DNA of 64,000 bases from Culicoidibacter larvae. Its GTDB lineage: Bacteria; Bacillota_I; Bacilli_A; Culicoidibacterales; Culicoidibacteraceae. Position numbers and translations under genes: made by a program. Where the stretch lies: assembly GCF_005771635.1 (NCBI RefSeq), contig NZ_VBWP01000001.1, positions 372,001 through 436,000 of the forward strand, read 5' to 3'. Below the pieces are notes generated by a model that was not told the origin of the DNA, ran no database searches, and saw only the letters and a list, made by a program, of their open reading frames with translations. Below, piece after piece: positions 3 to 55,977 of this stretch. Numbering within the stretch: the stretch's first letter is position 1; every line of letters starts with the position of its first letter.

Positions 3-413
3 AAGAAGGAAGGGTACTCGGCAGAGAATATTGCTTTTGGAGTCGGTGGTGCTTTGTTGCAAGGTAATTATCAGTCGTCAATTAATCGCGATACCCATAA
101 GTTTGCGATGAAGTGTTCGGCAATTGGTTTAGGTGCTGGTGATGCGTTTAAGCTGCAAGATGTGTATAAGTCGCCGATTACTGATCGCGGTAAGGTGTCT
201 AAACGTGGGCGTTTGGACACGATTGTCAATGGGGACGGTCGCGTCGAAACCGTCAACATTGACCAGCTTCCTCTAGGGGAATATCATCCGGACACGATTT
301 TGCAGACGGTGTATCGTGATGGTGGCATTGTGAAGTTGTATGGTTGGGATGAGGTTAAGGAAAATGAGGATTTGGTGCCACATGCGTTCCCGTCTGGACT
401 GGAGGGAAAATAG
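3..413 (+). CDS. nadV: Nicotinamide phosphoribosyltransferase, C-terminal part
   Basis: The gene is cut by the left window edge; the open frame runs from base 3 to the TAG at 411-413. The visible 136 residues match the C-terminal region of the NAMPT/NadV family: a glycine-rich FGVGGALLQ stretch, then NRDTHKFAMKCSAI, and an SKRGRLD segment, all typical of the phosphoribosyl-binding end of these enzymes. The family makes nicotinamide mononucleotide from nicotinamide and PRPP, the salvage route to NAD. The neighbour at 619 is an NrtR-like Nudix protein, a family known to regulate NAD genes, which supports the call. The stop codon lies inside the outer arm of the structured repeat at 409-601. A nicotinate phosphoribosyltransferase is less likely because the motifs are those of the NAMPT branch. 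Confidence 0.85.
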   Translation, partial: KKEGYSAENIAFGVGGALLQGNYQSSINRDTHKFAMKCSAIGLGAGDAFKLQDVYKSPITDRGKVSKRGRLDTIVNGDGRVETVNIDQLPLGEYHPDTILQTVYRDGGIVKLYGWDEVKENEDLVPHAFPSGLEGK

Positions 414-601
414 ATTGTTGAAAAACGTTCGCAATCTATGCAAACTGACAAAAATTGCTCAATCACGTATCTTTGGATACGCTCAATCACAATTTTTGCC
501 AGTTTCCTACGATTTCCGACGCGCTTGTGCTAGTACCTTGCGTGAATCGTTTTTCGACGCAAATCTTTGATTTGCTAGTCCCTTGTGGAAATCAATCTAT
601 T
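409..601. repeat. Nested inverted-repeat element, copy 1
   Basis: This non-coding gap folds on paper into nested arms. The outermost arms are AATAGATTG (409-417) and its complement at 593-601; next are GAAAAACG (420-427) and 548-555. A 16-nt core stem at 442-457 pairs with 490-505 with a single A-C mismatch. An inner hairpin is CGTATC (466-471), loop TTTG, GATACG (476-481). Between core and inner stems both strands carry the same direct repeat GCTCAATCAC (457-466 and 481-490), so that part cannot pair and forms an internal loop. A second copy lies at 54269-54399. There is no run of T directly after the core, so it is not an ordinary terminator. It could be a structured RNA, a miniature mobile repeat, or a processing site between nadV and the Nudix gene. 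Confidence 0.7.
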
Positions 602-1693: not shown

Positions 1694-3778
1694 TTATTCA
1701 GATTTACGAGTTTTGAACCAAACAGTAGTACCTAAGGCTACAATGATGATACCGACGATAATAGTTTCGGCCGGAGTGCCACCAGTTTGTGGCAGGTTTG
1801 AGTTACTGTTTGAACCGGTTTGGTTTTCAGTCGTTTTGTCAGTATTGTTGTTGCTAGAATCCTCAATGTCATTCGCTTTTACTTGCATACTGATAATCAT
1901 TGGGTCGTGGTCACTGACTTGACCGTTTTTCACAGTGAAATCAGCATTCATGTGGATAGCTTCAATTTGGGTTTGCGCCAGGTGTTTGCTGTTGACTAAG
2001 ATGTGGTCGAGGGTTTGCTGACGACCTTGATAGAGATAGCTGTACCGGGTTTCAGCGGGTAAGCTATTAGTCATATTAGTAAGTTCGTTGCCGCTTAATG
2101 TTTGTAATACGGGAGTGAATTCATAATCATTCATGTCGCCAAGAACGACAATGTGGGCATCGGGATTGATAGCTAACATTGATTGAACAAAAGCATTTAC
2201 TTCACGAGCCTGTTCAATACGTTTAGTTTCGCTATGTAAGGTTGGTGGTTGGTTGATGCCGAACATGCCTTCATCGCCGCCTTTAGATGAGAAGTGATTA
2301 CCAATAACGGTTACAACTTCATCATTAAAGCGGAATTGTCCGACTAGCGATTTACGGGTTGAAATAAAGTTAGTGCTGCCAACACCGATACGTGCCGGGT
2401 TCTGCACTAGCATTGCTTCTCCGTCAGTATCTTGAATTGTAGCAGCAGTTGTATGGTCACCGGCTTGTACATTGAGTGCTTCAACGCGGTCGGGGTTGTA
2501 AAGAATGACGACGCGAATGTTACCATTGGTAGCACCGCCGTCTTGATTGAATTCAGGATCAATGTTAAGGGCTTGATAATTTGGTCCGCCTACAGCAATG
2601 ATGTCATCAAGTAAGCGCTGAATACTTTGGTCAGCAGCAGAAGTACCATCACCTTTGTTATTACCGGAATTATCTTGAATTTCCTCGAGGCTGACAATGT
2701 CGGGAGCGCCAAGATTAGTAACAATTCCTTTGGCTACTTGCAATGACTTCTCATCGCTGGTTTTATTTGGCATTGCGCTGTAATTTTCAACGTTGAATGC
2801 GGCGACGGTTAAAACATCATTGCTAGAGCTTAAGCTGGTTACCATTTGTTGAATGTTTTTCTCGTTGAAAGTGGCAACTTCAGGTTTGAAGGTTTTGGTG
2901 CTGGAATTGAATTGGTTATAATCTAAAAATATTTTATACTGCGTATAATTATAAGTCATAACCCCGGTTAAAGAACCGTTAATGGTGTCCCCGGTTTGGC
3001 CAAGCATATTAGACATGCCGGCTTGATTAGAAAATGCGTAAGGAACTTGCAGATTTAAAATATCATAGTGACTTGAATCAGGGGTAGCAATAATGCCACC
3101 GTTAGCACTTTTCAATTGTCCGCCAGGGCTTTGCACCGTTACATTGTAAGTGTCATAACTTGGTGGCGCGACTAGTTGCGGGTCATTGACTTGTACTCGC
3201 ATACCTTCGAGCGCCTCAAAGAAATCCATTGCTGAAGTTATATCTAAGTCATCGCTCATACTTCCGTTTTTCACTGTTTGGTGAGGAATCGTCAAACCGC
3301 CGTCACCAAGTAGTTGAATTGAAACCTCATCTAAGTAGTCGCCGGAATCAGTGCTCACTATAGTGGCTGAACTGATCGCTGTTTGCGTCAGTTCAGCGGC
3401 CGCGCTGCCAGAATATGTAGCAGCTGGTAATTCTGCGACAATCCCATCAACCTCAACAAAGTTACCTTCTTTTGTTGTCCATCCGCTGGTAATTGGACTG
3501 GCTAATTTGACATAAATGCCTTCAGCCGTGCGCGGATCATTATCCTCATCAACACTTTTTGCTTGAATATAGAAGCCTTGCAAGCCTTTGTTGACATCAA
3601 GTGAGGTGACTACTCCCTGCACTGAAACGGTTTGACCAACTAAAGGTGACGTGTGGGTAGTACCTTGGATATCGTGGATAGCCGTAAAGGCCGCAGTAAC
3701 CGGAAATTGTGGCAAGGTAATAAATAATAATGCTATTGCAACAATGCTGCTACTTACAATCTTAAAAAATCTTTTCAT
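1694..3778 (-). CDS. Cell-wall-anchored extracellular nuclease, ExeM/NucH-like
   Basis: 694 residues. A signal peptide covers about residues 1-29 (basic MKRFFK, hydrophobic core, cut near VTA-A). Residues 35-290 look like OB-fold type nuclease accessory domains. Residues 325-630 form an endonuclease/exonuclease/phosphatase domain: AAFNVENY near 329, catalytic-type SLEEIQD near 362, GDMND near 550, LDHILVN near 600 and SDHDP near 622. The C-terminus has an LPQTGG sorting motif near 661, a membrane helix and the basic tail TRKSE, so a sortase should attach it to peptidoglycan. The likely role is degradation of extracellular DNA for nucleotides, phosphate or biofilm turnover. The start has a good site (AGGAGG about 8 bases upstream). 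No sortase gene is in the window. Confidence 0.88.
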   Translation of the reverse strand: MKRFFKIVSSSIVAIALLFITLPQFPVTAAFTAIHDIQGTTHTSPLVGQTVSVQGVVTSLDVNKGLQGFYIQAKSVDEDNDPRTAEGIYVKLASPITSGWTTKEGNFVEVDGIVAELPAATYSGSAAAELTQTAISSATIVSTDSGDYLDEVSIQLLGDGGLTIPHQTVKNGSMSDDLDITSAMDFFEALEGMRVQVNDPQLVAPPSYDTYNVTVQSPGGQLKSANGGIIATPDSSHYDILNLQVPYAFSNQAGMSNMLGQTGDTINGSLTGVMTYNYTQYKIFLDYNQFNSSTKTFKPEVATFNEKNIQQMVTSLSSSNDVLTVAAFNVENYSAMPNKTSDEKSLQVAKGIVTNLGAPDIVSLEEIQDNSGNNKGDGTSAADQSIQRLLDDIIAVGGPNYQALNIDPEFNQDGGATNGNIRVVILYNPDRVEALNVQAGDHTTAATIQDTDGEAMLVQNPARIGVGSTNFISTRKSLVGQFRFNDEVVTVIGNHFSSKGGDEGMFGINQPPTLHSETKRIEQAREVNAFVQSMLAINPDAHIVVLGDMNDYEFTPVLQTLSGNELTNMTNSLPAETRYSYLYQGRQQTLDHILVNSKHLAQTQIEAIHMNADFTVKNGQVSDHDPMIISMQVKANDIEDSSNNNTDKTTENQTGSNSNSNLPQTGGTPAETIIVGIIIVALGTTVWFKTRKSE

Positions 3779-9197: not shown

Positions 9198-9230
9198 GAA
9201 CCGGCCGCGGGGGTGGCCCGCGGCCGGTTC
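9198..9230. repeat. GC-rich perfect hairpin, left of the 5-oxoproline operon
   Basis: A perfect 14-bp stem, GAACCGGCCGCGGG with its complement and a 5-nt loop. There is no T run on either side, and it lies between two divergent promoters, so no gene ends here. The stem shares 13 of 14 bases with the terminator stem at 12152-12184. Confidence 0.7.
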
Positions 9231-12151: not shown

Positions 12152-12184
12152 AAACCGGCCGCGGGCAGACCCCGCGGCCGGTTT
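12152..12184. terminator. GC-rich bidirectional terminator
   Basis: A perfect 14-bp stem AAACCGGCCGCGGG with its complement and loop CAGAC, T-rich on the plus side and A-rich on the other, between the converging cyclotransferase and PucR-type genes. Its stem is nearly identical to the hairpin at 9198-9230. Confidence 0.92.
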
Positions 12185-53778: not shown

Positions 53779-54258
53779 ATGCAGATACAGATTATCGCCG
53801 TTGGCAAACTGAAAGAAAAATATTTACAGATGGCTATGAGTGAGTATCTGAAGCGTATGAGTGCATATGCAAAAATGCAGGTTGTGGAAATTGCTGAGGC
53901 AAAAGTGAGCGAGAATGGTCGGGAGGCCGACATCCTCGCCGCTAAGCAAAAAGAAGGCGACATGATTCTAGCTAAGATTAATAACGATGTGCATGTTATT
54001 GCCCTTGCGATTGAAGGCAAGCAATGCAGCAGCGAAGCGTTTGCAGCAAGCCTTGATCAATTAGCAACATATGGTAAAAGTAAAGTAGCTTTTATTATAG
54101 GTGGTTCGCATGGTCTCGCTGATACGGTGTATCAGCGTGCGAATCAGTTGCTTTCGTTTTCGGAAATGACTTTCCCGCATCAGCTGATGCGGGTCTTCCT
54201 CATCGAACAAATATATCGTGGTTTTAAAATTAATATGAATGAACCATATCATAAGTAA
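53779..54258 (+). CDS. rlmH: 23S rRNA (pseudouridine1915-N3)-methyltransferase RlmH
   Basis: 159 residues, SPOUT knot fold. [23 protein letters not shown] at the start, [10 protein letters not shown] (SAM site) and the ending [22 protein letters not shown] with EPYHK are diagnostic. The start has GAGGAG 8 bases upstream. The second structured repeat lies just after its stop. Confidence 0.98.
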
Positions 54259-54268
54259 AAAACGGCGC

Positions 54269-54399
54269 TTCAGATTAATGAGAAACGCCCGCAATTCCAT
54301 AAAAACCGGCAAAAATTGCTCAGTCACGTATGTCAAGATACGCTCTATCACAATTTTTGCCGGTTTTTTGTAATTTCAAGCGTTTTCAATTAGTCTGAA
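54269..54399. repeat. Nested inverted-repeat element, copy 2
   Basis: Outer arms 54269-54288 and 54380-54399 are complementary at 16 of 20 positions. The core is a perfect 18-bp stem, 54301-54318 with 54351-54368, and ends in a T run, so here it may also act as a terminator. An inner hairpin CGTAT/ATACG sits at 54327-54342, and the direct repeats GCTCAGTCAC and GCTCTATCAC occupy the internal loop, as in copy 1. The 64-nt cores of the two copies match at 55 positions. Confidence 0.75.
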
Positions 54400-54546: not shown

Positions 54547-55977
54547 ATGTTTTTAAATATTTATGAATTTTGTGCCGGAACCAGTGAGTATAATACAATC
54601 CGTGCTACGTTTAGCGGTGAAGAACTTTGCAAAGGATTGCAAGGCCGTTTAGAGGCGAACTTGGAGGATTACGTAAGTAAGGATCTCGGGGCAATTACAC
54701 CAATTAATACTTTAGGGAAATTGAATTTTGAGACGCTTTATTTTGTTGGTTTAGGTGAACGCAAAGAGTTGACTACAGCGAAATTACGTACTGTGTTTGG
54801 CGAATTGGCTAAGATGATGGAAAAAGATTTTGTGTTGCATGCTGAAAGTTTTGCAACAGAAACAATTCCTGGAACCACAGTAGCTCAAATTTTTGTTGAG
54901 AGCTATATTATGGCGCGTTATGTTTTCAAAAAATACCGGGCTGATCGCAAAGAAAATGCTGAACTGACCGTGCGAATTTTCACTGCTGATGATGCCAGTG
55001 CGGCAATTGAAAAGGGAACAGTATATGGTGAGGCGACAAATCACGCTCGTGATTTGTCAAATGAGCCGAGTAATAAATTGATTCCTGCTGATATTGCGAC
55101 ATATGCGCAACAATTAGCGAAAGATTTAAACCTCGAGTGTGAAGTATTAGCGAATTCGCAGTTGAAAGAATTAGGTGCCGGAGCCTTATTGGCAGTAAAC
55201 CGTGGCAGCCGTCATGAAGCGCGAATGATTACGATTAAGTATCAAGGATTGCCAACTTGGGAAAATCCTACTGCATTAGTTGGTAAGGGTATTACTTTTG
55301 ACACTGGCGGATATAGTTTGAAACCACCAACAGGTATGGTTGGTATGAAACACGATATGAGTGGTGCTGCCAATGTGCTCGGTGCAATTGAAGCAATTGC
55401 TCGTTTAGGATTGAAAGCAAATGTTATGGCAGTAATTGCATCTACTGAAAATATGGTGAGCGATTATGCTATGAAAGTTGATGATGTAATTACATCGTTG
55501 GCAGGAAAAACAATCGAAGTCAATAATACTGATGCTGAAGGACGTTTGATTTTAGCTGATGCGGTAACTTATGCACAACAACAAGGGGCAACCCGTATTG
55601 TTGATATTGCGACTCTAACCGGTGCATGTTTAGTGGCTTTGGGTACTGATATTTCCGGAGTTGTTTCAAATAATGATAGCTTCTACAATGACTTTGTAAA
55701 AGCGGCGGCAGCAACCGATGAGAAACAATGGCGTTTACCAACCGATCAATGGTTTGTTGACCAAGTGCGCTCAAGCAAGGTAGCAGATTTATTGAATGGT
55801 CCGACTCGTTTTGGCGGGGCTTCAATCGCAGCAGCATTCATTGGTGAATTTATTGAGGTGAAAGATTGGATCCATCTTGATATTGCCGGTACCGGTAATG
55901 TTGATAAGGATACTGCGCTTTGTCCGTATGGTGCAACAGGAGTATTTGTTCGCGCCATGGCAGAATTATTTGCATAA
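54547..55977 (+). CDS. pepA: Leucyl aminopeptidase, family M17
   Basis: 476 residues. The two-metal site motifs are VGKGITFDTGGYSLKP near 246-261, MKHDMSGAANVLGAI, and the family signature NTDAEGRLILAD near 326-337. The N-terminal 165 residues are the less conserved macro-like domain. It is a cytosolic hexameric peptidase for peptide turnover. AAGGATG lies upstream of the ATG. Confidence 0.96.
   Translation: MFLNIYEFCAGTSEYNTIRATFSGEELCKGLQGRLEANLEDYVSKDLGAITPINTLGKLNFETLYFVGLGERKELTTAKLRTVFGELAKMMEKDFVLHAESFATETIPGTTVAQIFVESYIMARYVFKKYRADRKENAELTVRIFTADDASAAIEKGTVYGEATNHARDLSNEPSNKLIPADIATYAQQLAKDLNLECEVLANSQLKELGAGALLAVNRGSRHEARMITIKYQGLPTWENPTALVGKGITFDTGGYSLKPPTGMVGMKHDMSGAANVLGAIEAIARLGLKANVMAVIASTENMVSDYAMKVDDVITSLAGKTIEVNNTDAEGRLILADAVTYAQQQGATRIVDIATLTGACLVALGTDISGVVSNNDSFYNDFVKAAAATDEKQWRLPTDQWFVDQVRSSKVADLLNGPTRFGGASIAAAFIGEFIEVKDWIHLDIAGTGNVDKDTALCPYGATGVFVRAMAELFA

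Follow-up and report, generated by a model that had tools for sequence, protein, structure and literature searches.

A long imperfect palindrome with a conserved apical loop in Culicoidibacter larvae, probably a non-autonomous mobile repeat built like ERIC

MITEs are held together as families by conserved terminal repeats that are tied to a parent transposase. Bacterial examples such as RUP, NEMIS/Correia, bcr1, and YPAL are intergenic, multi-copy, non-coding sequences with strong hairpins (PMC2229807). The REP, BIME, and REPIN repeats with RAYT are palindromic and extragenic and lie mostly downstream of genes; REPs are 20-40 bp long and have a foot that reads GTAG or CGTC, the GTAG type having been linked to Y1 transposases (PMC3733652). 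ERIC, also named IRU or RU-1, is a long imperfect intergenic palindrome of 127 bp that is non-autonomous, is present in tens of copies, and has been reported also at the 3' ends of genes, while its mobiliser has not been established (PMC10969869, PMC2759123). Its reported hosts are Enterobacteriaceae and Vibrionaceae (PMC10969869).

Here we describe a palindromic repeat of Culicoidibacter larvae, two copies of which lie in the window (the whole analysed stretch of 64,000 nucleotides). Copy 1 occupies positions 409-601, with the minus strand as the better-folding one, as delimited by reading of the sequence and by a match of covariance model R1 at G000:C1:372407-372537 (G000 being the C. larvae genome). 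Its outer arms, also recognized by reading, are AATAGATTG at 409-417 and CAATCTATT at 593-601, and the left one contains the TAG stop codon (411-413, plus strand) of the upstream open reading frame (54-413). The core stem and apex (442-505, minus strand) consist of a variable stem, an internal loop of CTCAATCAC and GCTCAATCAC, and the hairpin GTATC-TTTG-GATAC; on the minus strand this loop reads GTGATTGAGCGTA...TACGTGATTGAGC and forms tandem G·A pairs. The right arm carries two nested hairpin modules, at 517-544 (CGAC-stem-TAGTACCTTGCGTG) and 555-588 (CGAC-GCAAATC/GATTTGC-TAGTCCCTTGTGG). Copy 2 (54269-54399, minus strand; R1 match G000:C1:426267-426402, E=3.9e-37) is an insert-free form flanked by rlmH (53779-54258) and a leucyl aminopeptidase gene (54547-55977), which match Pfam PF02590 and PF00883.

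The first-pass annotation of this DNA had paired the two cores at 55 of 64 positions. This identity holds between 442-505 and 54303-54366 (minus strand), which are in register; the interval it gave for copy 2, 54304-54367, is off by one base and yields 20/64. The base changes it described were found as claimed, with T-A in copy 1 and C-G in copy 2 at core position 5/60, and A-C and G-C, respectively, at position 7/58. So was the direct repeat in the internal loop, which has GCTCAATCAC twice in copy 1 and GCTCAGTCAC and GCTCTATCAC in copy 2. The cores also align better than chance: among 200,000 pairs of 64-mers drawn at random from the window and compared without gaps, the highest identity was 36/64. 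Set against their dinucleotide shuffles, both loci fold much more stably, copy 1 with z = -4.67 and copy 2 with z = -7.67.

These copies belong to a large family in the same genome. BLAST with the core recovered 20 strong copies and model R1 about 40 loci, with E-values down to 1.3e-39; a copy is ~130 bp long and has no coding capacity. A consensus hairpin and covariation statistics were derived from an alignment of 13 insert-free copies. Double changes occur in 21 of 42 stem pairs, a number matched by none of 500 shuffles, and account for 67 pair cells (shuffle mean 23.9), while standard pairs make up 91.6% of pair cells (shuffle mean 80.7). The covariation score of 0.328 (shuffle mean 0.134) was likewise reached in 0 of 500 shuffles, and every slid register scored far lower. 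Some 63-nt cores are identical between different loci, and few decayed copies were seen. A second subfamily is present at G000:C2:58404-58533, C2:210994-211121, and C2:178553-178635 (CCAAGCACATATATTGG ... CTCAATCTATGCGCTTGG); its outer module resembles the outer arms of copies from Clostridia, CATATCGGGCG ... CACCCAATCTGTG.

The element is a long imperfect palindrome in which the stems vary and the apex is fixed as CTCRRTCAC-GTA-N8-TAC-GCTCNNTC(G). From the outside inward, it begins with variable arms of the type AGACTGTTGAAAACGC ... GCGTTTTCAATCAGTCT. Next come a conserved segment containing an internal loop (GCAATCTATG / CCTACGATTTC), a stem of ~16 bp that varies but stays paired, and the apex, which in C. 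larvae is CTCRRTCAC-GTAT-N6-ATAC-GCTCNNTC. The terminal arms pair yet differ from copy to copy, and are sometimes altered on both sides even between near-identical copies. Copying of the outer arms from the target was considered and rejected because the arms have a consensus among copies. In several copies, the arms contain additional nested hairpin modules such as CGAC-hairpin-TAGTMCCTTGYG; TAGTMCCTTGYG has 12 exact matches in the genome, compared with 0 for a reversed-pattern control.

Outside this genome, the relatives of the element are found in distant phyla and not among the relatives of its host. The search with a covariance model that the first-pass annotation had proposed succeeded within the genome but gave no match to the full model in 39 relatives, and the apex pattern was absent from another 294 genomes in the class. 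When 84,980 species were scanned for the apex (21 specified bases; chance expectation about 0.1 by our own estimate), 14 stretches matched, in MAGs labelled Alphaproteobacteria, two Bacillota MAGs, a Clostridia genome, a Chloroflexi MAG, a cyanobacterial MAG, and one further bacterium. Nearly all 14 lie within long imperfect palindromes whose stems are unrelated, and the internal loops are conserved across phyla without having been corrected to perfect palindromes. R2, a 63-position model built across the apex-bearing taxa, gave 34 and 29 matches at E<=0.1 in two Alphaproteobacteria MAGs, 9 in a Bacillota MAG (G302), 47 in the Clostridia genome (G304), 1 to 4 in four other genomes, and 0 in three close relatives of C. 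larvae included as controls. From their isolate names, we take the Alphaproteobacteria MAGs and G302 to be of termite-gut origin. Within the Clostridia family of G304, copy numbers are 35, 13, 2, 0, 0, and 0. No exact apex match was found in IMG/VR; eight viral matches to a looser pattern lack complementary flanks and were judged to be chance. In Alphaproteobacteria MAGs (loci L214, L226, and L227), differing palindromes form arrays at intervals of ~120-130 nt, some with shortened apex loops, and at a contig end of Bacillota UR.bin2 (L083, 13-167) the two apex elements of a tandem pair are 124 nt apart.

The structure belongs to the strand complementary to that folded in the first-pass annotation. 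On the strand as first read, C·T and A·C mismatches follow one another through the apex loop. In its complement, two tandem G·A / A·G units enclose two pairs that are Watson-Crick or U·U, and a G·U and the CGUA hairpin follow, which can be written as C-[GA/GA]-NN-[GA/GA]-G·U-CGUA. The inner helix of the C. larvae copies has 26 A·C and 3 G·T on the strand as read (29 and 4 in a larger alignment), and the complement therefore carries G·U wobbles; the outer helix is without strand bias (22 G·T and 19 A·C). The wobble bias of the inner helix is clear in the C. larvae genome only, and the idea that it is general to all genomes was rejected. The complement folds better in 23/23 cores and 30/30 full elements of C. 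larvae, in 29/30 copies of G304, and in 22/30 copies of genome G301, although these counts are not independent since the copies are related.

Copies are frequently placed at the ends of genes. By simple ORF calling, 16 of 42 C. larvae copies have an upstream gene that reads in the same direction and whose stop codon is -12 to 0 nt from their left end, and placement at stop codons recurs in G301, G302, and G304. Orientation relative to genes is mixed, at about 26 to 10 in C. larvae and unbiased in G304, and in most C. larvae copies the strand that folds stably runs antisense to the neighboring genes. Two copies (L131, before pheS, and L162) follow a T-box-like leader terminator and precede the gene apparently under its control. 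Of the TA termini with TA target duplication that characterize ERIC, TAR...YTA ends are seen in many C. larvae copies, but not all.

The junction between purH and purD provides direct evidence for gain or loss of a whole element at one site. An element is present there in G304, while the gap measures only 24 nt in G310 and 21 nt in G312, genomes of the same family. The empty site that had been suggested as a check was found, at this single site and in related Clostridia carrying related elements rather than in C. larvae; the target-site duplication sought alongside it was not, none being clearly readable in the C. larvae copies or at purH-purD. The same junction holds unrelated palindromes in other genomes, namely an inverted repeat with arms of ~45 bp in G309 (L250, ~2890-3060) and a long palindrome in G302 (L253, ~2400-2560), and appears to be a hotspot for palindromic repeats of several kinds.

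Among the described systems, the element shares with ERIC the form of a long imperfect intergenic palindrome in tens of copies, together with an apical loop of the type GGAGC-hairpin-GTGAC, which in E. coli ERIC is also on the better-folding strand. The loop likeness was noticed post hoc, with the E. coli ERIC center taken from standard ERIC-PCR primers and checked against real E. coli loci. However, the terminal hairpin of ERIC has TTAC (TTAC...GTAA) where the element has GTA...TAC, ERIC is without the outer tandem G·A pair, and the stems (by inspection), outer arms, and total sequence are unrelated, the element departing from the 127-bp consensus. On E. coli ERIC loci, R2 gave off-target matches only (3.4-4.4 bits, E of 2.6 to 5). 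Given this mismatch and the differing remainder, the element behaves like ERIC, but an identity with ERIC does not follow, and the shared apex could be a convergence on the same loop. Bacterial MITEs resemble it in size class, intergenic location, copy number, strong hairpins, and lack of coding capacity (PMC2229807), and non-autonomous insertion by filled and empty sites is seen at purH-purD, a single site in Clostridia. Unlike MITEs, the element has variable termini and a conserved center, and searches of the C. larvae genome for Y1, RVT_1, and DDE_3 found no parent transposase. REP-type repeats are also palindromic, extragenic, and mostly downstream of genes, but the element is ~130 bp long and the C. 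larvae genome has no Y1 protein.

We consider the element to be, with a probability of roughly 0.7, a non-autonomous mobile palindromic repeat that is MITE-like and built like ERIC. This reading draws directly on the dispersal, covariation, strand preference, stop-codon position, and patchy distribution of the copies and on one filled/empty pair. It also agrees with the first-pass proposal of selection on an RNA or DNA structure, in a mobile repeat or a structured RNA; the mobile structured repeat is supported by the further copies, the covariation, the patchy distribution across phyla, and the filled and empty sites. One strand folds into an extended hairpin in which the stems change freely yet remain paired and the apex keeps a fixed non-canonical loop. 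At this apex, a trans-acting protein would recognize the folded strand, either single-stranded DNA or RNA, and would copy or move the element by a transposition chemistry that we infer. Surviving insertions would be found chiefly where genes end, in many cases across the stop codon. A protein that reads structure would impose conserved non-canonical loops inside freely varying stems; the simplest reading is a non-autonomous mobile repeat recognized, as a folded strand, at the apex. As for the mover, the C. larvae genome has no Y1/RAYT transposase (PF01797), no reverse transcriptase (RVT_1, found in only four element-bearing genomes), and no IS630-type DDE_3 (found in one Chloroflexi MAG only). 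No part of the window matched Rfam at the gathering score, and at E<=1 nine loci gave only tRNAs and one chance miRNA match far below the gathering score. A text search of the literature with the apex sequence returned only unrelated papers among the matches listed.

Selection by the host would account for several of the same observations. Structured RNAs used by the host, for instance antisense RNAs or elements for mRNA processing or stability located where genes end, would be selected copy by copy, consistent with stems that are very strongly maintained in diverged copies, with a strand-specific structure, and with sites that lie at the ends of genes, directly ahead of downstream genes, and behind T-box-like terminators; selection at the host level also fits because few decayed copies were seen. 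Such RNAs would not be expected to show mixed orientation relative to genes, a stable strand that is mostly antisense to its neighbors, a patchy presence between sister genomes with absence from relatives, and no match to an Rfam family, and we regard this explanation as unlikely. The symmetry of the outer arms, which show no strand bias and sometimes change on both sides even between near-identical copies, together with the arrays in Alphaproteobacteria, would instead suit an element acting in the chromosome as DNA, such as a BIME-style binding site for nucleoid proteins or topoisomerase that forms cruciforms and whose arms are kept symmetric by template switching during replication. This is very unlikely in our judgment, given that the internal loops have not been corrected to perfect palindromes across phyla, that the inner helix and the folding energies favor one strand, and that the filled/empty site indicates insertion. 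AT-rich intergenic hairpins are common, and the two window copies might be put down to coincidence, but that idea has next to no chance of being right and is refuted by the R1 matches in the same genome, while the covariation and the core identity, far above that of random pairs, also contradict it.

A family in which the apical loop of ERIC recurs across several phyla offers a direct route to the missing machinery by which ERIC-type repeats move. The multi-copy, few-copy, and empty sister genomes allow a search for genes that are present in carriers and absent from element-free sisters, and the tandem G·A apex is a strand-specific structural signature with which protein binding can be tested. 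More speculatively, ERIC and these elements might form one bacteria-wide superfamily of mobile hairpins, with ERIC as its enterobacterial branch and the tandem-G·A apex recognized as a folded single strand by one mobilization machinery; we lean against this proposal, under which ERIC and these elements would have one common mover.

The window also contains a near-identical pair of GC-rich hairpins at 9199-9230 and 12152-12183 (AACCGGCCGCGG...CCGCGGCCGGTT). They are probably intrinsic terminators, and their near identity at two loci is unusual.
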